DNA of 14,174 nucleotides. It comes from an uncultured Planctomycetaceae bacterium (GTDB lineage Bacteria > Planctomycetota > Planctomycetia > Pirellulales > Pirellulaceae). A program made the position numbers and the translations under genes. The notes under the pieces were generated by a model. That model was not told the DNA's origin. It worked only from the letters and a program-made list of their open reading frames with translations, and ran no database searches. Below, piece by piece: positions 4,127 through 14,174 of the stretch; within the stretch, counting starts at the first letter, position 1, and each line of letters opens with the position of its first letter. Where the stretch lies: contig CAIYOB010001221.1 of NCBI GenBank assembly GCA_903927685.1, positions 1 to 14,174 on the forward strand, given 5' to 3'.

Positions 4127-4696
4127 TCAGGCGAGCGCGTTGCCGATTGCGTCCAGAGCGGTTTCGATGCCCTCGACATACGCCGGCGATGCCACGTCGA
4201 TCCCGGCGCAGGCGTGCGCCAGAACCAAGGCTTCCAAGCCGTCCATGGCGGCGTTGAGTTTCTGGATCATGCGACCTCGTCCGCGCTCGTGCAGGTCGCT
4301 GCGGATCGTTCCGCGAGCCGGTTGCTCGGCGGTCGCTTCGCGATCCAAGCAGATTGTAATGCCGAAGCAAGGAAGCCGGATTTCCCGAGCGGCTTTCGCA
4401 GCCACGGCAGCCATCGCTGGCAGCGACGGGCTTTCTTCGCCCTGCCAGACTTCTGTCTGCGACAAGAAACCGCCATCAGGATTCGGCGGATTCACCGCCA
4501 AGTAGGGATTGCCGGAAAACAGCATGGCGAACGGCGCGAAGGCGATCTCGCCGTCATGCAGACGATTGGCCGCGCAGATCACGGCTACCGGCTCGCCCGA
4601 AGCGGCGAGTTGGCATTCCAGCAAGGCCGCATCGCCGGCCAACATTGCACGGCGGAGTGTGGCGAAGTTCTGTCGGTGACCTTTCGCAAGTGCCAT
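4127..4696 (-). CDS. DUF6117-like protein, 189 aa
   Basis: ATG at 4696 has AAGGAGG about 7 nt upstream, inside the end of the preceding gene, and the two share one base (TGATG). Residues 1-75 (NFATLRRAMLAGDAALLECQ, then GEPVAVICAANR, then FAPFAMLFSGNPY) fit my memory of DUF6117. That family has an N-terminal pattern of NFxTLxxAxxxGDxALLEC followed by a TGEP strand and a GNPY turn, and its function is unknown. Residues 76-189 are an added region ending in two helices (KLNAAMDGLEALVLAHACAG and VEGIETALDAIGNALA). The assignment is by recall, not by a search. The DUF6117 part is probably complete. Confidence 0.75.
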   Translation of the reverse strand: MALAKGHRQNFATLRRAMLAGDAALLECQLAASGEPVAVICAANRLHDGEIAFAPFAMLFSGNPYLAVNPPNPDGGFLSQTEVWQGEESPSLPAMAAVAAKAAREIRLPCFGITICLDREATAEQPARGTIRSDLHERGRGRMIQKLNAAMDGLEALVLAHACAGIDVASPAYVEGIETALDAIGNALA

Positions 4697-4869
4697 CAGG
4701 AAGCCTCCTTCTGTGCGGATTGGTTTTCAGTGCAGTCTTCGGCATCGTCCGGCGGCAGGCTATCGTTCAGCGCTCCCTGGCGTTCGGCCCAGAGCTGCCG
4801 GACCTCCAGGCAGGCATCGCAAGGGCAGAGGGCCGCGTGTCCCAGCGGCAGACCATACGGATCGAGCAT
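4696..4869 (-). CDS. Small acidic Cys-containing protein, 57 aa
   Basis: An ATG at 4884 and another at 4869 are in the same frame. I choose 4869 because GGAGG lies 8 nt before it and nothing lies before 4884. The protein has a CPCDAC cluster at residues 16-21 and then a helical, increasingly acidic tail (SLPPDDAEDCTENQSAQ). CxCxxC could hold a metal but is too short to name. Its stop overlaps the start of the DUF6117-like gene by one base, so translation is likely coupled. No known family. Confidence 0.65.
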   Translation of the reverse strand: MLDPYGLPLGHAALCPCDACLEVRQLWAERQGALNDSLPPDDAEDCTENQSAQKEAS

Positions 4870-4936
4870 GATGCAAGCCTCCATCGGTTCGTGACGCTAA
4901 TCACCGGCGACACAACCGCGCAGGTCCCCGTGCCGT

Positions 4937-5464
4937 TCAGGGCTTGGTCCTGCGCCGGCGTTTCTGAGGTTTCGGAGTTGCTTTTTCCGGGTCCAGACAT
5001 CGCCAAAGCTCAGGCAGCGTCACGTCGCCGGTGGTGATGTAGATGTCCGAGTGCTTGGGGACGGCGGTCCAGCCGATCTCGAAGCAGTTTTCTGGCAGCC
5101 GAACGATATTGTTGGCAGCCGGCACGTGGCGGATGATTTCCTGCTGGCATTCCATGCGCTGGGGCTCGAACTTTGCCAACTCCATGCCCACCGGCAGCAC
5201 CGCACGGCCCGCCTTCTCCAACTGCCCGCTCCACCCCGCTTCGCAGTCGTCGCAGGCGGCGACCAGATCGAACGAATAGAATTCCACCGCGTACCGCCAG
5301 AAGTACACTTCGTACAGGTCAGGCAGCTCCCGGCGATGCCGGAAGAGCGTCTCGATATCCCGCCGCAGCCGAGCGCAGAACGGCTTGGTGAGTTTCAGCA
5401 GGGCACATTCGCAGTCCAGGTTGGTTTCCGGATTGCTGCTGTGGACATTCAAGATCAAGTGCAT
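4937..5464 (-). CDS. Hypothetical protein, 175 aa
   Basis: ATG at 5464 is preceded by GAAGGACCAACATC, which places AAGGA 8 nt away. The N-terminal 80 residues include DCECALLKLTKPFCARLRRD and the aromatic run LYEVYFWRYAVEFYSFDLV. The middle and C-terminal parts carry an EIIRHVPAANNIVRLPENCF stretch and a GWTAVPKHSDIYITTGDVTL strand pattern. The final ten residues are strongly basic (KPQKRRRRTKP). The basic tail suggests contact with nucleic acid or acidic proteins. No family is recognised. The leader is nearly identical to that of the next gene at 5531-6124. Confidence 0.8.
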   Translation of the reverse strand: MHLILNVHSSNPETNLDCECALLKLTKPFCARLRRDIETLFRHRRELPDLYEVYFWRYAVEFYSFDLVAACDDCEAGWSGQLEKAGRAVLPVGMELAKFEPQRMECQQEIIRHVPAANNIVRLPENCFEIGWTAVPKHSDIYITTGDVTLPELWRCLDPEKATPKPQKRRRRTKP

Positions 5465-5530
5465 GATGTTGGTCCTTCGACACGACCAGGGGCGAAGGAA
5501 ACTCGCGTCGCTGACTCCAGACCGGCAAGG

Positions 5531-6124
5531 CTAGACGCTGACCAGACCCAGGGCTTGGGCTGTTATTCGCCGGTTTTCCCAGTACCCGGCCTCGTCATAG
5601 ACCTCCTCCAAAATGCCGAGCGATTGGGCGTGTTGCAGCAGATCGACGATGGCCAAATGACAGCGGCGGAAGTTGCGTGCCCCGCCGCATTCGCGATTGC
5701 GGGCATATTCCGTCTTGCAGAAGCTGCCCCAGTGCCAGTGGTCCAGGTTGGTGTGGACCGTCCACTGAACACAGGGGCCAACTTCGATGGTCGCCGGATA
5801 GCGGCACAGGCCGAAGTTCGCCTGTTCGCACCCACGGCCCGGAGAGCAGGAGAAGGCAATGACGTGCTCCGGAATCACGGCGTACCGGCGGGCAGGCTCA
5901 CGCGGGTCGGGCACCAGCTTCCGAGCCTGGATCAACAGCCAGCGGTGCGGAAACTGGTCATCGTGCTGCTGAAAAGCGCAATCACTGCCAGTCAGTTCGA
6001 TGACCTCGTCCACCTGATCGAAGGGCAGATCGCGGGCGCGACTGCCGAGCTGGACGACCAGATTCCGGGCCTCTTCGGCACTCGCTGCCGTAGAACGCAG
6101 TTGGTAATGAATCGTCAATCCCAT
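5531..6124 (-). CDS. Hypothetical protein of the MGLTIHYQL type, 197 aa
   Basis: The start is ATG 6124, with GAAGGACGAACATC directly upstream; a longer frame to 6220 has no ribosome site and a non-conserved N-terminus. The protein opens with MGLTIHYQLRSTAASAEEAR, an N-terminus I have seen in a recurrent but uncharacterised family of planctomycetes and other environmental bacteria. A strand-helix start is followed by VVQLGSRARDLPFDQVDEVI. The middle has several Cys residues (GRGCEQANFGLCRYP), and a helical end reads ILEEVYDEAGYWENR. The WHWGSFCKTEY block looks like a conserved core. No catalytic motif can be named. A 181-bp gap separates it from the ligase upstream, so it may start a separate transcript. 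Confidence 0.85.
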   Translation of the reverse strand: MGLTIHYQLRSTAASAEEARNLVVQLGSRARDLPFDQVDEVIELTGSDCAFQQHDDQFPHRWLLIQARKLVPDPREPARRYAVIPEHVIAFSCSPGRGCEQANFGLCRYPATIEVGPCVQWTVHTNLDHWHWGSFCKTEYARNRECGGARNFRRCHLAIVDLLQHAQSLGILEEVYDEAGYWENRRITAQALGLVSV

Positions 6125-6305: not shown

Positions 6306-7646
6306 CTACCGCGCGACGGCTTCGGCGTAGCCCTTGCCGATCTTGGCCGCGATGAGCTTTTCCGCGTGTCGGGTGGCCGCGGCCGTGTCCGGGAAAGGTT
6401 TCACCTGCGTCTGGCCGTCCGTGCCGATCCGCCCGAAGCGAACCGTCACCTTGTTGCCGCTGACGCCGATCTCCCAGAACTTCGCGGAACTGCCGCCGAT
6501 GAACTCGAAGTAACGCTTGGCCATGATGGACTCCTTCAGGTTGTTGGTGTTGTCGGTGGAAATGTGAGCCCCAACGGCCGGAACGCCCGGCTGCTGGGCG
6601 TCTGAAGCGAAATCGGTCCAGGCTACCGCAGACGTGTCGTCCTCGGTCCGGCCCCGCACGAAGGACGGGAAACGGGGTACACCGCGGTCCGTCAGTTCCT
6701 GGTAGCGGAACGTGATCAGGCTGCCGACAGGCGGCGGATTCTCCCGCTCGGCGTCCGTGAAGCCCGTGCCCACGGAGAAAGTCAGGCCGCTGGGCAGTTC
6801 TGCGACCACCGCACCCAGCCGTCCGGCATGACGCCCACGGCCCGGCAGATGCTCGACGACGCGGGCTTCCGCATCGTGGAAGGTCTTCACCTTCAGCAAC
6901 GTGGACGATCGGCCCGGCTCGTACCGTGATGCCGGCTGCCGGAGCATCAATCCTTCGCCACCCAGCGTCTCGACACGGGCCAATTCAGTTTGCAGATGGC
7001 CGATGCCGGTGCAGCGCTCCTGCTGAAGCACCCGCGCATACTGCGGCCGATGCTCCCGCAACGTGGACTCCAGAAACGCTTGACGGCTTTCAAACGGCCC
7101 ATCGGCGGCCGGTGCGTCGAACACTACAAAGGCAATCCGACGCCAGTGGTCGCTTTGATCGTGCCGGCGGACGATACTCACGGTTCGCTGAAACGCTTTA
7201 CGATCCAGCCACAACTCGCCATCCAGCGGCAAGTTTGGCAGTCCCGCGACGAACCAGTCGGGCGCGCGATACACATTGCCCTGCCGTGAGAGAAACTCGC
7301 GGCCGGTCCACCACGCCCGCACCCCGTCGAGCTTCTCGCTCATCCACCAACCGGCCAAGTCGATGTCGTTTTCCCACCGCTCGGCCAGCAGCAGGTTCGG
7401 CACGGTGCGTGTAGTTGAAGGCGTAGCCGCGGAAGGCTTTGAAAGCAGTGCGCCCAGGCGTTCCTGCTCGGCCTGTTCGCCACGATACGTGCGGAGGTGT
7501 TTGCATGTCCGACGTTCGATGGGCAGCGATTGATTACGCCACGCCGGGCACGTGCAGGAGTACACTCCGCCGACGTTCTTCAAGATATACGGTAGGCGAG
7601 CCGACCCTTGCACATGGGTCGACTCGCCGTCGTTCAAATCAGGCAT
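6306..7646 (-). CDS. SWIM zinc finger - ATP-dependent DNA ligase - WGR domain protein, 446 aa
   Basis: DNA ligases of this class join nicks by covalent AMP transfer to a lysine. Residues 20-52 are a SWIM finger (C31-x-C33-x14-C48-x-H50), a likely DNA- or protein-binding module. Residues 80-270 are the nucleotidyltransferase domain: EKLDGVRA with catalytic K105, LDGELW (motif III region), FVVFDA, EGLMLR (motif IV) and LLKVKT (motif V). Residues 270-345 are the OB-fold part (ARVVEHLPGRGRHAGRLGAV, VGSLITFRYQELT). From 375 a WGR domain follows (KRYFEFIGG..., KFWEIGV, VTVRFGRIGTDGQ). The start ATG 7646 has AAGGA. Inside the frame, MAKRYFEF at 6524 has its own AAGGAGTCC site, so a free 72-residue WGR protein may also be made. 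The gene lies 40 bp after the AAA gene. Confidence 0.93.
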   Translation of the reverse strand: MPDLNDGESTHVQGSARLPYILKNVGGVYSCTCPAWRNQSLPIERRTCKHLRTYRGEQAEQERLGALLSKPSAATPSTTRTVPNLLLAERWENDIDLAGWWMSEKLDGVRAWWTGREFLSRQGNVYRAPDWFVAGLPNLPLDGELWLDRKAFQRTVSIVRRHDQSDHWRRIAFVVFDAPAADGPFESRQAFLESTLREHRPQYARVLQQERCTGIGHLQTELARVETLGGEGLMLRQPASRYEPGRSSTLLKVKTFHDAEARVVEHLPGRGRHAGRLGAVVAELPSGLTFSVGTGFTDAERENPPPVGSLITFRYQELTDRGVPRFPSFVRGRTEDDTSAVAWTDFASDAQQPGVPAVGAHISTDNTNNLKESIMAKRYFEFIGGSSAKFWEIGVSGNKVTVRFGRIGTDGQTQVKPFPDTAAATRHAEKLIAAKIGKGYAEAVAR

Positions 7647-7686: not shown

Positions 7687-9183
7687 TTAGTTGTTCTGCG
7701 GACTGCGGGTCACCTTGCGCCGCGACGTTGGTTTCTCCGTTTGCCGCGTGTAAATCCCGCCCCGGTCGGCATCCAGGCACCGGCCACTAGCCCAGGTCCG
7801 CAATCGCTCTACGGCTTCCGCTGCCGTAGCTGCCACGGGTACGACGTTCTGAGCCGCCTGGATCAACGGCACGTCCAGCAACGCCGCCAAGCGGCAGCAA
7901 GCTCTCACTTCAGCTCCCGTCCAGCTTTCGTCGTTCGGCAGCTTCTGGTCGCGGTCGATCTCGAACAGGTCCAGGTACAGGTGCCAGATGGCTTGCTTCT
8001 GCTCGTGGCCCGGAAAGTCCAGGAAAAACGTCGCGTCGAACCTTTCGGCGCGACTGAACTCCGGCGGCAGCTTGGCGACGTCGTTGGCAGTGCAAACCAC
8101 GAACACGTCGGAATCGTGATCGTTCAGCCAACTCAAGAACGAGCCGAACATGCGCGACGAGACGCCGCTGTCGGTCTGGCCGGAGTTGCCGACGCCGGCA
8201 AACGCCTTCTCGACCTCGTCGATCATCACCACGCACGGGGCCATCGCATCGGCGATCTGCAACGCCTGCCGCGTCCGCTCTTCGGTTTGGCCCACGAGCG
8301 AGCCCATCAGCGTGCCGACGTCCAAGATCAGCACTGGACGCCCCGTTTCGCGGCCCAGACACTTGCAGAACTGGCTTTTCCCACAGCCCGGAGGAGACAA
8401 CAGCAAAACGCCCCGTGGCCGCTTCAGCGGGTTGCTGCGGCTCGGCTGCAGCAGGGCCCGCTTGGTGAATGCCTTCAGCGACGCCAGGCCGCCCAGGCTG
8501 CTGAAATCCTCCGTGCCACGGTACAGTTGCATCAGGCCGCTTTTCTTTAGCGTTTGGCACTTGAGATCCCATACAGCGTCGGGCACGATGCGCCCATGGC
8601 GGACGAGCGAGAGCGAAAAAGCCGACTCAGCTTCGTAGCGAGTCAGACCGGCCGCCGCGTCCAGCAGCATGTCGAGCTGTGCCCCGGTCGGCAGTTCGCC
8701 GTCCTCGGTGGCGATGCCGCGAGCAATTTCGTGCAACTGCTGGCGGAGAGGCAGGTCGTGTTCCAGCACAACGAACAGTTTTTCCAGCTCCACGGGGACC
8801 GAAACGATGGGTGAGAGGACCAGGATAAACGTGCGGTGCTGTTTACCTTTGGTGATCTGGGCGGCCAATGCCTGGATGATCTCCGGGCTGGACAGGAAAC
8901 GATGAAAGTTGACCAACACGAGAAGCGACGCGCCGTCCGTGGAACCGAGCGCATCGAGCGATCGGATGGCCGCCAGCGGGTCGTTCGTGCCAGTGTCGAC
9001 GTTGGCGTCATCCTGACGGTGAATCGTCAGTCCCTTGTTGATGTCCCAGACGACCATACGCCACTCTTGGTCGCGGCACATCTGGGCGATCTCGGTCAGG
9101 GCATCGTCGTGCTCGTGGGACTGGACCCACAAACCGGTGAAGCAAGCGGAGACGTACTCCGTCAGTTGTTGGGAAAGTTGCAT
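7687..9183 (-). CDS. Ycf46-like AAA ATPase, 498 aa
   Basis: ATG at 9183 has AAGGAG about 9 nt upstream. Residues 1-150 match the Ycf46 N-domain layout: MVVWDINKGL, then LLVLVNFHRFLSSPEIIQAL, then LVLSPIVSVPVELEKL. The AAA module begins near 225. It has Walker A SPPGCGKS (263-270, with Ser in place of the usual first Gly), Walker B CVVMIDEVEKAF (D322, E323), sensor 1 TAND (N367), FSRAERFD with candidate arginine fingers R378/R381, and a GAE sensor-2-like motif at 423-425. The final 30 residues are basic and disordered. Ycf46 proteins are plastid/cyanobacterial and bacterial ATPases whose client is unknown. The DNA ligase follows in the same direction, and Ycf35-like and DUF2997 genes lie upstream beyond the broken plus-strand gene. 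Confidence 0.92.
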   Translation of the reverse strand: MQLSQQLTEYVSACFTGLWVQSHEHDDALTEIAQMCRDQEWRMVVWDINKGLTIHRQDDANVDTGTNDPLAAIRSLDALGSTDGASLLVLVNFHRFLSSPEIIQALAAQITKGKQHRTFILVLSPIVSVPVELEKLFVVLEHDLPLRQQLHEIARGIATEDGELPTGAQLDMLLDAAAGLTRYEAESAFSLSLVRHGRIVPDAVWDLKCQTLKKSGLMQLYRGTEDFSSLGGLASLKAFTKRALLQPSRSNPLKRPRGVLLLSPPGCGKSQFCKCLGRETGRPVLILDVGTLMGSLVGQTEERTRQALQIADAMAPCVVMIDEVEKAFAGVGNSGQTDSGVSSRMFGSFLSWLNDHDSDVFVVCTANDVAKLPPEFSRAERFDATFFLDFPGHEQKQAIWHLYLDLFEIDRDQKLPNDESWTGAEVRACCRLAALLDVPLIQAAQNVVPVAATAAEAVERLRTWASGRCLDADRGGIYTRQTEKPTSRRKVTRSPQNN

Positions 9184-10602: not shown

Positions 10603-10797
10603 TTACTGCCGCTGGCTGGCCTGCTGGGCAACGCTTTGGCTGGCGTAGAACTCGCTCGTGAGACGCTCACCGGTGCGTTGGCCCAGGGCCTGCTCGATGA
10701 ACTTGCTGGCCGCTTGGCACGCCGAACCGGCAAAGCCCCTGGTGGTGACAGTCGTCTCGCCTTGAGACGACACGATGATCTCGATGATCTTGCTCAC
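10603..10797 (-). CDS. DUF2997 protein, 64 aa
   Basis: The start is GTG at 10797, which overlaps the TGA of the upstream Ycf35-like gene as GTGA and has GGGAGG 7 nt before it; this start restores the usual MSKIIEIIVS opening. The protein fits DUF2997: a first strand SKIIEIIVSSQGETTV, a glycine turn RGFAG, then a helix SACQAASKFIEQALGQRT. The family is small and of unknown function, and is typically found beside DUF1257 (Ycf35-type) genes, which holds here. The last ~20 residues are a Gln/Ser-rich tail. The coupling suggests the two proteins are made together. Confidence 0.85.
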   Translation of the reverse strand: MSKIIEIIVSSQGETTVTTRGFAGSACQAASKFIEQALGQRTGERLTSEFYASQSVAQQASQRQ

Positions 10798-11162
10798 GCG
10801 GCACCTCCCACGCTGATGGTCAGCTTGATGGAACCGTCGGCCAGCGGCTGTTCCGTGCAAACGTGCCCTTGGCGTCGTGCCTCGACTTTGGCCTTTTCCA
10901 CGGCGTAGCTTTGGAGAAACGCGTCGAGGTGTCTTTTCTCACCCCAGTGGCCACGGAAGTTGTCGTACTGGACCTGACCGGTGGCCAGATCGCAGACGGC
11001 CGGATAGCGCCACTCGGGCAACTGCACGGCCAGTCCCGTGACCTGGCTCGTGAATAGTCTGTGCGTCCCTTGGACGGGCGCGGGTAGCCGCAGACGTTGG
11101 CAAGCGGCTTGCACCGCGCCGGCGTCGCGGATCTCGGTTCGAATCGTCACAACATGGCTCAT
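10794..11162 (-). CDS. Ycf35-like DUF1257 protein, 122 aa
   Basis: ATG at 11162 gives the characteristic opening MSHVVTIRTEIRDAGAVQAA seen in DUF1257/Ycf35 proteins. The ribosome site is AAGGG, about 11 nt away. The body has GLAVQLPEWRYPAVCDLATG, then QYDNFRGHWGEKRHLDAFLQ with the conserved-looking W and D, then a helix AVEKAKVEARRQG, and ends in a strand IKLTISVGGAA. Ycf35 is a plastid/cyanobacterial protein of unknown function; relatives occur in other bacteria. It overlaps the DUF2997 start by four bases. The presence of a Ycf46-like AAA gene about 1.6 kb downstream strengthens the assignment, because these families recur together. Confidence 0.85.
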   Translation of the reverse strand: MSHVVTIRTEIRDAGAVQAACQRLRLPAPVQGTHRLFTSQVTGLAVQLPEWRYPAVCDLATGQVQYDNFRGHWGEKRHLDAFLQSYAVEKAKVEARRQGHVCTEQPLADGSIKLTISVGGAA

Positions 11163-11219
11163 GTGAGGATTTCCCTTCTTGCAACATTGGACGGATGGCA
11201 ACCGATTGGGTCTTGCGGC

Positions 11220-11455: not shown

Positions 11456-12073
11456 TCAGGTGCGCGCCGATTCGCCTTGGAACTCCTGCCACGCGGTTTC
11501 CAGCTCGCGCCGCGTTTGGGAGATGCGGCCGGGACTGACGCGGAACTTGCGTGCCGTGGCCTTGGTCGTTTCGCTGCTGGCCAAGGTCTCCGCAATGCGA
11601 CGCTTGTGGCGGGGAAGGCTGTCGAACCAATCGGCGATGTCCATCCGTGCCGCCGCCGTGTCCGCCGGTCCGGATTTGCGATCCTCGATCAGGACCTCGC
11701 GCCACTCGCCCTCCTCGGCGTCGTAGCGATCCAGACGATCGACTGCGAACCGCTTTGCCTGCTGGGCGTATTCACTGCTCACGTCGCGGACGTTCAGCCT
11801 GCAACCGACACGGCGACCGTCGCGAACCTGCTTGATCGCATACTGGGCCAGCGGCGTGGCGTAAACGGCATCGATCAGGCCGCGTTCGACGAGCCGGACA
11901 AACGCGACCCAGCAGTTGGCGATGGTCTCGGCGATCAGTTCCTCACGGCGTTCGCCACCTTCGCTCCGGAAAGCAAACCGGGCTTGCTCCCGAATCTGCG
12001 GCAACAGGGCCAGAAACTTCGCAGCGCGGGCAGACGCAGCGGATCGGCGCATCTTCTTGGCATTGGCGATCAT
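11456..12073 (-). CDS. Sigma-factor-like HTH protein, 205 aa
   Basis: ATG at 12073 has AAGGAG about 9 nt upstream. The N-terminal part (residues 17-85) resembles a sigma region 2-like helical unit: FLALLPQIREQARFAF, then ELIAETIANCWVAFVRLVER. The C-terminal part (150-197) fits a sigma-70 region 4 helix-turn-helix: FDSLPRHKRRIAETLASSET, then ATARKFRVSPGRISQTRREL. The middle is charged. Such proteins recruit RNA polymerase or bind DNA; this one may direct transcription of the cluster. The canonical -10-recognition helix of region 2 is not clear, so it may be a DNA-binding regulator derived from sigma factors. It has a 208-bp upstream region with two hairpins. Confidence 0.8.
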   Translation of the reverse strand: MIANAKKMRRSAASARAAKFLALLPQIREQARFAFRSEGGERREELIAETIANCWVAFVRLVERGLIDAVYATPLAQYAIKQVRDGRRVGCRLNVRDVSSEYAQQAKRFAVDRLDRYDAEEGEWREVLIEDRKSGPADTAAARMDIADWFDSLPRHKRRIAETLASSETTKATARKFRVSPGRISQTRRELETAWQEFQGESART

Positions 12074-12281: not shown

Positions 12282-12857
12282 TTATTTAGCTTCGGGGCCG
12301 GCGTTCGTAGGATCGGCATGCTCAGTGCTGGCGATTGCGGGGTCGTAAGTGATGGCGCGCGGCGAAGCCGACGCCCGCGTCAGCAACGGATGCTCCGACA
12401 CAAGATCCTCAACCAAGACCTCAGCAATGAGGCGGTCGGCGTCATTGGCTGGGGCGCGAAGTAGGTGCCAACCCAGGAGCAAGGGTAGCAGGCATGCCAG
12501 GACCAGACCGACGCTGGTGATCGCGGCAGCGATAATGGGATCCTGGCGGCGCTCCGCGGCCAGCGACCTTCGCTCCCTCTCGAGTTCATCGCGTTGGCGG
12601 CCGGTCTCCGCCCGCTCCGTCTGAACCTCGCGTTGTAGGGCCGCGAGTTCTTCGCGCGCCTTGGCGTCGGCTGCCACCAACTCCCGGGAGCCGTCGGCGA
12701 CCTGACGGTGCAGTTCGGCCATTTGCCGATTCTGCTCAGCCTGCCGATCCAGGTGACGCTCGGCCATTTCCGCAAGACGGGCGTTCTCGTCACACCCGAT
12801 CACCGTCAATATCAGCGCGGCGACGATCGGGACAAACACAGTTCTGGCTGCTTTCAT
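12282..12857 (-). CDS. Lipoprotein with coiled coil and C-terminal membrane helix, 191 aa
   Basis: ATG at 12857 has GGAGG 5 nt upstream. The signal peptide MKAARTVFVPIVAALILTVI ends in a lipobox VIGC (19-22), so C22 is the likely lipidated residue. Residues 24-105 are highly charged with heptad-like Leu/Ala spacing (ARLAEMAERHLDRQAEQNRQ, ELERERRSLAAERRQ), a coiled coil. Residues 108-133 (PIIAAAITSVGLVLACLLPL) form a membrane helix, and a hydrophilic tail of about 58 residues ends in AGPEAK. A lipid anchor plus a membrane helix suggests a protein that spans from the periplasm to the membrane. The whole signal peptide is encoded within the end of the overlapping 12790-12987 gene. Function is unknown; a spanin-like role is possible by layout only. 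Confidence 0.8.
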   Translation of the reverse strand: MKAARTVFVPIVAALILTVIGCDENARLAEMAERHLDRQAEQNRQMAELHRQVADGSRELVAADAKAREELAALQREVQTERAETGRQRDELERERRSLAAERRQDPIIAAAITSVGLVLACLLPLLLGWHLLRAPANDADRLIAEVLVEDLVSEHPLLTRASASPRAITYDPAIASTEHADPTNAGPEAK

Positions 12858-12987
12858 GGGACCTCCAGCGATCCAGAAGACGTCGAAGGACTTGCTGTAT
12901 GGCAATCCGCAGACGGCGCTCTCGGATGAGGGCCACGATTGCCAGCAGCAGGGTTACAGAAACGAAGCATAGTGCGATTTGACTCAA
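12790..12987 (-). CDS. Small single-helix membrane protein with TTG start, 65 aa
   Basis: TTG at 12987 lies 7 nt after AAAGGAGG in the run AAAGGAGGTGACTCG, close to a perfect anti-16S complement; this decides the start, since the longer frame to 13056 has no site. Residues 3-21 (QIALCFVSVTLLLAIVALI) form a membrane helix followed by a basic amphipathic helix (RERRLRIAIQQVLRRLLDRW). The tail includes NCVCPDRRR. The last 68 nt overlap the start of the lipoprotein gene in a different frame. Overlapping small membrane protein and lipoprotein genes recall Rz/Rz1 spanins, but the coiled coil here is on the lipoprotein, and no lysis genes are seen. No family recognised. Confidence 0.7.
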   Translation of the reverse strand: MSQIALCFVSVTLLLAIVALIRERRLRIAIQQVLRRLLDRWRSHESSQNCVCPDRRRADIDGDRV

Positions 12988-13437: not shown

Positions 13438-14174
13438 TCACCGCACGGGCGACAGTGTGTATAAGTTATGAACAATGCGCGGCGTGGGCAGCGGATAATG
13501 ACCCAGGTAGGTCAGGAACCGCTCCCAGGAAAACGACCGCCGTTGGCTCCGGCGATTCAGCCACTTCAGCACCAGCCGGATCGCGAACCGGTAATAGCGG
13601 GTCAGTCCCCGCATATTCCCGCTCACGCCGTAGTACTGGTAGTGGCCTTGGAGTTTGGCCTTCAGCACCGGCCACCAAGCCTTCACCGGGATCTGGCTCC
13701 GCACCCTCTTGAGCCACGTGCGCAGCTCCTGACATTTCTTGCGGAACTTCTTCCGGCTGGTCTGGCGTCCGACGATGAACTTCCCGCGTCGGCTCGCCGC
13801 ACAGAAGTGCGTGAAGCCCAGGAAGTCGAAGGTGTTCGCCCGGCGCTTCTGCCGCTGGGCATTCTGCCGCTCATACCGGCCAAAGCTCAGCACCCGCGTC
13901 TTCTCTGGGTGCAGCGTCAAGTCGCATTGCGTAAACCGCTCGCGCAAGGCTTGCAGGATCCTCTGGGCCTCGTCCTGATACTGCACCAGGACGACAAAAT
14001 CGTCCGCGTACCGCACCAGAAAACAGGCCCCGCGAACTTGTCGCTTCAGCCGTTTCTCGAACCACAAATCCAACACGTAGTGCAGGAACACATTGGACAG
14101 CATCGGGCTCAGGTTACCTCCCTGCGGAGTCCCCTGTTCGGTCGCCACGAACTGACCCGCTTCCACATAACCCG
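13438..14174 (-). CDS. ltrA: Group II intron reverse transcriptase/maturase, N-terminus missing at the right edge
   Basis: The frame enters from the right edge (GYVEAGQ) and gives about 245 visible residues. The RT fingers/palm segment is clear: GTPQGGNLSPMLSNVFLHYV, then the catalytic RYADDFVVL, whose aspartates coordinate the metal ions. Next come LHPEKTRVLSFGR and FDFLGFTH. The maturase (domain X) follows, with HYQYYGVSGNMRGLTRYYRF and a basic thumb helix, then SFSWERFLTYLGHYPLPTPR and the end LYTLSPVR. No HNH endonuclease domain is present. The protein aids intron splicing and retrohoming. It is followed directly by domain V, so ORF and RNA belong to the same intron. Confidence 0.95.
   Translation of the reverse strand, partial: GYVEAGQFVATEQGTPQGGNLSPMLSNVFLHYVLDLWFEKRLKRQVRGACFLVRYADDFVVLVQYQDEAQRILQALRERFTQCDLTLHPEKTRVLSFGRYERQNAQRQKRRANTFDFLGFTHFCAASRRGKFIVGRQTSRKKFRKKCQELRTWLKRVRSQIPVKAWWPVLKAKLQGHYQYYGVSGNMRGLTRYYRFAIRLVLKWLNRRSQRRSFSWERFLTYLGHYPLPTPRIVHNLYTLSPVR

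Follow-up and report, generated by a model that had tools for sequence, protein, structure and literature searches.

A Planctomycetota gene joining a SWIM-like finger, a DNA ligase and a WGR domain, and the internal start that may still yield a free WGR

When two neighbouring genes come to be read as one frame, it may be asked whether the start of the downstream gene has become a relic or is still in use. This question is raised by a DNA ligase gene of an uncultured Planctomycetaceae bacterium, which lies on the minus strand (6306..7646) of contig CAIYOB010001221.1 (assembly GCA_903927685.1); the whole stretch of 14,174 nucleotides (nt) that was analysed is referred to here as the window. The reading favoured here, held as a whole with a probability of roughly 0.68, is that a former operon was fused into one frame, which most likely gives both a ligase-WGR protein and a free WGR domain.

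The gene is a single open frame of 446 amino acids (aa), recognised as a DNA ligase by NCBIfam NF006592 (340 bits, cut-off 200), in which a SWIM-like zinc finger region (7467..7625, residues 8-60, with C31, C33, C48 and H50) is followed by a ligase core of nucleotidyltransferase and OB domains (6648..7400, residues 83-333), with Lys105, which we take to be the lysine of ligase motif I. Pfam places DNA_ligase_A_M at residues 101-254, DNA_ligase_OB_2 at residues 268-333 and WGR at residues 378-443. An AlphaFold model based on 67 alignment rows has a mean predicted local distance difference test score (pLDDT) of 83.2, with residues 1-60, the ligase and the WGR well folded and residues 66-82 and 337-374 below 50, and Cys31, Cys33, Cys48, His50 and Lys105 are unchanged across the 67 aligned sequences. 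A sequence-only reading of this DNA had proposed that the three parts share one frame, which is borne out by the 446-codon frame, the Pfam ligase and WGR matches, and the named residues at their positions. It had also described a WGR part starting at a Met with its own AAGGAG leader, and all of this is present, given that the Shine-Dalgarno (SD) motif AAGGAG (6531..6536) is followed by the spacer TCCATC (6530-6525) and an ATG at 6524, from which a free product of 72 aa is predicted (6309..6524, residues 375-446, stop codon at 6306-6308). Between the ligase core and this ATG lies a linker (6525..6620, residues 343-374, all on the minus strand), read here as a former intergenic region, which opens with codon 343, TGG (6618..6620), at the position of the stop in unfused relatives of 342 aa.

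The origin of the fusion through the loss of this stop, as first supposed from the sequence, is upheld by close kin. Among the best 120 of 7872 protein matches, fused and unfused proteins occur together, and P0004, P0005, P0006 and P0012 are unfused ligases of 342 aa, 85-92% identical to the window ligase, that terminate where codon 343 of the window reads TGG (P0002, seen as protein only, has Leu there). A rapidly built tree of 256 ligases places the window, L161, P0002-P0006 and P0012 in one starred clade of eight, and L161, from the nearest genome sampled, carries the same fusion in DNA 98-99% identical to the window. In L286, the ligase of which is 76% identical, the order is AAA ATPase gene, ligase, TAA, 95 nt, ATG and WGR, and the 95-nt gap ends in GAGGAG and a spacer ahead of the WGR ATG, an arrangement that looks, at the level of sequence, like a pre-fusion operon. 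We infer the polarity of the fusion from these relatives, and as the next clade outward is also fused, fission followed by re-fusion is an alternative. The fused protein P0003 has the KEFIMDK junction in common with L161, resembles the window at 29 of 32 linker and 300 of 342 ligase positions, and is grouped by the tree with the unfused P0012 (support 90), which may reflect recombination, a second fusion or an uncertain branch.

Over the wider family, 149 distinct bacterial ligases with DNA (viral loci and ligases below 250 bits set aside, identical ligase parts counted once) comprise 92 fused to WGR, 17 with a separate WGR gene, 33 with none in the available stretch and 7 cut at a contig end, counts that differ from natural frequencies, as fused sequences (A1, P0001, P0008 and L066) served as the queries for sampling. 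The separate WGR frames follow the ligase on its own strand, 15 of the 17 at 42-95 nt past the ligase stop; among them are L189, with a cut ligase and a distance of 1014 nt, L267, at 218 nt, and L065, the ligase frame of which ends in a WGR-like tail. Four fused rows with a WGR score below 60 were dropped from later tests, leaving 88, and of L273-L288, which were added later, 12 repeat table rows, L281 lacks a WGR, L282 and L287 are fused without the ATG, and L286 is separate. The sequence-only reading had allowed that the idea of an internal start would fall if the WGR part were always fused and the AAGGAG not conserved; this is not the case, as the family shows a separate WGR in 17 of 149 cases and a start kept in several lineages. 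One ligase of this family, L050, stands in a record titled as a Klebsiella pneumoniae metagenome-assembled genome, which is probably a mislabelled bin.

The evidence for the internal start comes from the association of the ATG with an SD motif, defined as a contiguous match of 5 nt or more with a spacing of 4-11. Scoring by duplex energy alone was set aside in favour of this contiguous match, as a threshold of -5 kcal/mol is passed by half of the background ATGs. Of the 88 fused genes (WGR score above 60), 18 have an ATG in frame at the boundary of the WGR, and 17 of these 18 have an SD, against 49 of 468 other in-frame ATGs of the ligase parts (Fisher p 4e-15) and against 8 of 70 fused genes lacking the boundary ATG, even at the best of five places (p 3e-11), kinship being ignored in both tests. 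The separate WGR genes have an SD of at least 5 nt in 7 of 16 cases, i.e., not a stronger one than the internal starts. Given that AAG GAG or similar codons would encode Glu, the motif can also be followed in proteins (121, less P0105 of 731 aa and 11 unfused), where Glu stands at -5 to -3 in 61 of 70 fused proteins with a boundary Met and in 2 of 39 without it; of 11 independent protein-level pairs, some 7 are in agreement, 4 show no difference, and the number in disagreement averages zero (median p 0.016). For a sister clade of 35 proteins, 29 of them with the Met, the DNA was not found by the genome-contig scan or by genome searches with P0001 and P0008.

The strongest case is the Gemmata clade, in which eleven fused genes keep the ATG, ten of them being compared after L199, a near-copy of L066, was dropped. 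All ten carry GGAGG, or GGAGA in L040, at equal spacing before the ATG, and the motif is also present in L078, an unfused member of this clade, where it is an ordinary ribosome binding site. The four-fold sites of the ten genes are saturated (pairwise identity 0.39-0.73), with 3 of the 53 conserved four-fold columns of the ligase part invariant, and the codon GGA at -12 is identical in 10/10, with just 2 of the 48 preceding bases invariant. GGA accounts for 31 of the 407 remaining glycine codons in these genes, and by the usage of each gene its invariance has a log10 P of -11.1 on the assumption, not wholly true, that the ten are independent. Three fused genes of this clade have no Met (L207, L208 and L212), and these have no motif either. 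Among 120 further proteins, seen as protein only, G[G/D/E]xxM occurs in 57 of 63 with the Met, and P0123, P0141 and P0147 have GGxxV, as a GTG start would read. As a control, a G[GDEAV]xxM prefix is found at 121 of 427 Met in the ligase parts of these proteins, 119 of these Met being the ligase motif GEGxM, and at 2 of 308 once this motif is set apart. An apparent in-frame start with its own ribosome binding site is conserved in the family, above all in the Gemmata clade.

The domain that would be released is a clear WGR, which scores 67.7 bits with PF05406 over residues 378-443 (curated cut-off 22) and is matched at E<=1 in 59 of the 67 aligned members, 8 of the 67 being unfused proteins. Residues 375-446 alone fold in the model (pLDDT 92.5), where they have the fold shared by WGR domains bound to DNA ends and resemble the PARP2 WGR-DNA structures. 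The structures compared, namely PARP2 and PARP1 (6f5f, 6f5b and 4dqy) and the Bacteroides protein 2ra8, have the WGR domain in common with the window protein, which differs from the PARPs in lacking their catalytic domain and in having a ligase as effector; no PARP catalytic family is among the Pfam matches of the window protein or of the 67 members. The targeting of the ligase to damaged DNA, which the sequence-only reading suggested, gains some support from this modelled resemblance, and just the conserved Tyr of the KGY motif (PMC7608914) hints at the binding of 5'-phosphorylated DNA ends.

Several results weigh against the production of both forms, or narrow it. The boundary ATG is lacking in 70 of the 88 fused genes, and likewise in the later-found L282 and L287. 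A stand-alone WGR elsewhere, which might compensate in these lineages, was sought in 64 selected genomes at E<=1e-9 without success: the WGR frames below 150 aa in these genomes sit near the ligase on the same contig, bar one on contig C213 of G046 (about 4 kb past the ligase, with one stop) and, in G785, a weak frame that is also stop-bearing. Because most sampled fused genes are without the start and no compensating gene was found, there is no general need in the family for a free WGR, and this form is optional. The family tests count related rows as separate, although these are not independent, and at the level of DNA, in independent tree pairs contrasting in the ATG, the SD follows it by 5:0 with one tie (p 0.0625). 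The openness of the RNA at the internal start is close to background (0.46 against 0.43, p 0.13), a weak measure, because no clear difference was obtained for the genuine starts of unfused WGR genes either (p 0.08). The window and L161 are so nearly identical (98-99%) that the conservation of the start between them shows nothing, and, for the DNA-binding part of the reading, Foldseek alone gives the PARP WGRs just E 0.08-0.5.

Part of this would be expected if the fusion were recent and the SD and ATG were unused leftovers decaying with time, an explanation that is somewhat unlikely overall and that draws its force from the many fused genes without the ATG, from the apparent youth of the window fusion, relatives 85-92% identical being unfused, and from a window-L161 difference too small to reveal selection. 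Leftovers of this kind would hardly keep one GGA codon through ten Gemmata-clade genes with saturated four-fold sites and almost no invariant base in the stretch before that codon, nor would they lead the ATG and the SD to be gained or lost jointly, as they tend to be, or three GGxxV proteins to keep the motif beside a possible GTG. Constraint on the peptide itself, by which the residues before the WGR (KE..M, GGSTM) are kept for the protein and the SD is a by-product, would account for the recurrence of GG and GGST among the Gemmata-query proteins. This is quite improbable for a stretch that is disordered in the model, that varies by lineage (KESI, KQEDNA, GGST) in forms each compatible with an SD, that shows an extreme choice of GGA, and that mostly loses GG or Glu along with the Met (the exceptions being 2 of 39 for Glu and the three GGxxV proteins).

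A free WGR might also serve to restrain the full-length ligase, by blocking or titrating it or its DNA sites. The precedent is RpnL/RpnS (PMC10327210), where the C-terminal domain is also translated by itself and in this form inhibits the complete protein, and the likeness in architecture is close: in both cases the small C-terminal domain of a DNA-acting enzyme has an internal start and its own ribosome binding site in the full-length frame. The Rpn proteins are described there as a nuclease toxin-antitoxin, whereas the window gene encodes a ligase with a WGR and was apparently born of two fused operon genes, with close relatives either fused or unfused; a ligase is no obvious toxin, no PADLOC model matches it at E<=1e-3, and many fused lineages are without the internal start, which together make such regulation rather doubtful. 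That the fused frame is erroneous, or belongs to a gene in decay, and that just the free WGR or just the ligase matters, can hardly be credited. The existence of unfused relatives does mean that the fusion is dispensable, but fused ligases outnumber every other state sampled (92 of 149, with fused queries), the 67 sequences show no change at Lys105 and other core residues, and the ligase parts of the window and L161 are separated by 10 synonymous codons and 3 changed ones (1 and 3 in the linker, 0 and 1 in the WGR). On balance, production of both ligase-WGR and free WGR is preferred: it is very likely that the internal start functions in part of the family, and likely, with less assurance, that it does so in the window. 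The earlier suggestion that both forms are made is in this way upheld in part, by a start that appears to be kept in several lineages, with the qualification that the window itself may hold a fossil.

As for the remaining parts of the protein, CxC-xn-CxH is the pattern of the SWIM zinc finger, and it is present in all 143 bacterial relatives with an intact N-terminus, with a spacing of x14 in 141 and x13 in 2. The region has a pLDDT of 82-91, and the model places strands of the N-terminal domain at residues 8-12 and 20-25. None of the Pfam SWIM models matched at E<=1 among the 67 aligned members, and the name SWIM-like is used here because the motif is present without such a match, so that the SWIM finger of the earlier reading holds as a motif and lacks a family match. 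In L077 (Bacteroidales, 4709-6022), one frame has the reversed order of WGR, SWIM-like finger and ligase, a hint that association may count for more than layout. SWIM-like ligases are carried by very large phage contigs too, and no WGR was found next to these: CxC-x14/15-CxH occurs in 21 of 82 viral ligase frames (IMG/VR contigs of up to 527 kb, loci L081-L091, L093-L096, L098, L103, L116, L132, L140 and L148), and the phage record LR745208.1 (485 kb) matches residues 1-331 of the window protein at 46%.

The nearest solved ligases are Lig E enzymes (PDB 4d05, 8u6x and 6gdr), to which the core is 40-46% identical across about residues 80-336. Lig E enzymes are, according to PMC8455567, essentially all proteobacterial, most with a predicted leader peptide. 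The window protein shares their nucleotidyltransferase and OB core with high similarity and differs in being no two-domain minimal protein with a leader peptide (the leader judged from sequence), as its 446 aa have a SWIM-like finger before the core and a WGR after it. Among plasmids, 30 records match, none over 80% of the query.

Upstream of the ligase by 40 nt lies a gene for an AAA ATPase (7687..9183, minus strand, 498 aa, Pfam AAA), the product of which matches phrog_8638, a phage family, at 281.6 bits in residues 4-488. By tblastn it also matches 114 phage records, 4 of them across more than 80% of its length, and by its ATPase part only it matches the IetA models of PADLOC (best 58.6 bits). 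A relative is found upstream of 11 of the 143 ligases, among the 149, that have at least 500 nt upstream, as well as in L286. The WGR is separate in seven of these loci (L021, L026, L048, L051, L176, L187 and L286), fused with the ATG and SD in the window, its near-copy L161, L001 and L002, and not adjacent in L180. Fusion without the start is seen in 0 of 10 AAA-linked WGR loci and, where the AAA gene is absent, in 66 of 89 loci, the four weak-WGR rows standing outside this comparison (p 6e-6, kinship again ignored; p 2e-5 without L161), and the AAA type of operon seems to go with a free WGR, many other fusions managing without.

The window holds several other genes of note, all on the minus strand. 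A sigma-70-like gene (11456-12073, below the NCBIfam cut-off) has a relative in L001, small genes at 10794-11201 and 10603-10860 are shared with L001, L002 and L048, and one at 12282-12905 with L002 and L048; together, these recur near the ligase and are perhaps a shared accessory element. A DUF6117 protein (4127-4696) has relatives encoded close to the ligases of L002, L051 and L079, and a reverse transcriptase of group II intron type (13438-14166; 146 bits, cut-off 300) lies near the end of the window.

Given these observations, the ancestral operon would have comprised an AAA ATPase, a SWIM-like ligase of Lig E type and a WGR. Unfused kin suggest that the ligase stop was lost and the intergenic stretch was in frame, which would have given the ligase-WGR fusion, and conservation suggests that the SD and ATG of the WGR gene were retained, so that the full ligase-WGR and a free WGR would both be made, with the fused form alone in lineages that have lost these signals. 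In a working model, the WGR would hold 5'-phosphorylated DNA ends or nicks in the manner of the PARP2 WGR, the tethered copy bringing the ligase and free copies bridging the other side, and the internal start would set the ratio of bridging modules to ligases; this bridging mechanism is somewhat less likely than not. A further and more speculative step, itself doubtful, would see in the AAA ATPase, SWIM-like ligase and WGR a small end-joining module of Planctomycetota, its ligase also carried by some huge phages, in which pairs of WGRs bridge 5'-phosphorylated ends, an internal start that has outlasted successive fusions and fissions gives a tethered and a free bridge, and one stop codon switches between two genes and one gene with two proteins. 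Internal in-frame translation with complementary roles is described in PMC11899642 for Cas8b and Cas11b, where a small subunit is made from an internal Met of the gene of the larger one, those proteins differing from the present one as subunits of the CRISPR Cascade that are neither ligases nor WGR proteins.

Finally, the library searched has no paper uniting the SWIM finger, the WGR domain and a DNA ligase, the top-ranked papers of further searches include none on this protein, and the gene points to a ligase with a PARP-like end-binding domain, on which these searches likewise listed no paper. Gene fusions are usually read as one protein replacing two, and here a downstream start seems to have been selected after the fusion in some lineages. 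If this is true, the evidence of domain fusions in bacterial genomes under-counts their products, and a family with both states inside one clade offers a natural experiment on when fusion replaces a protein and when it adds one.
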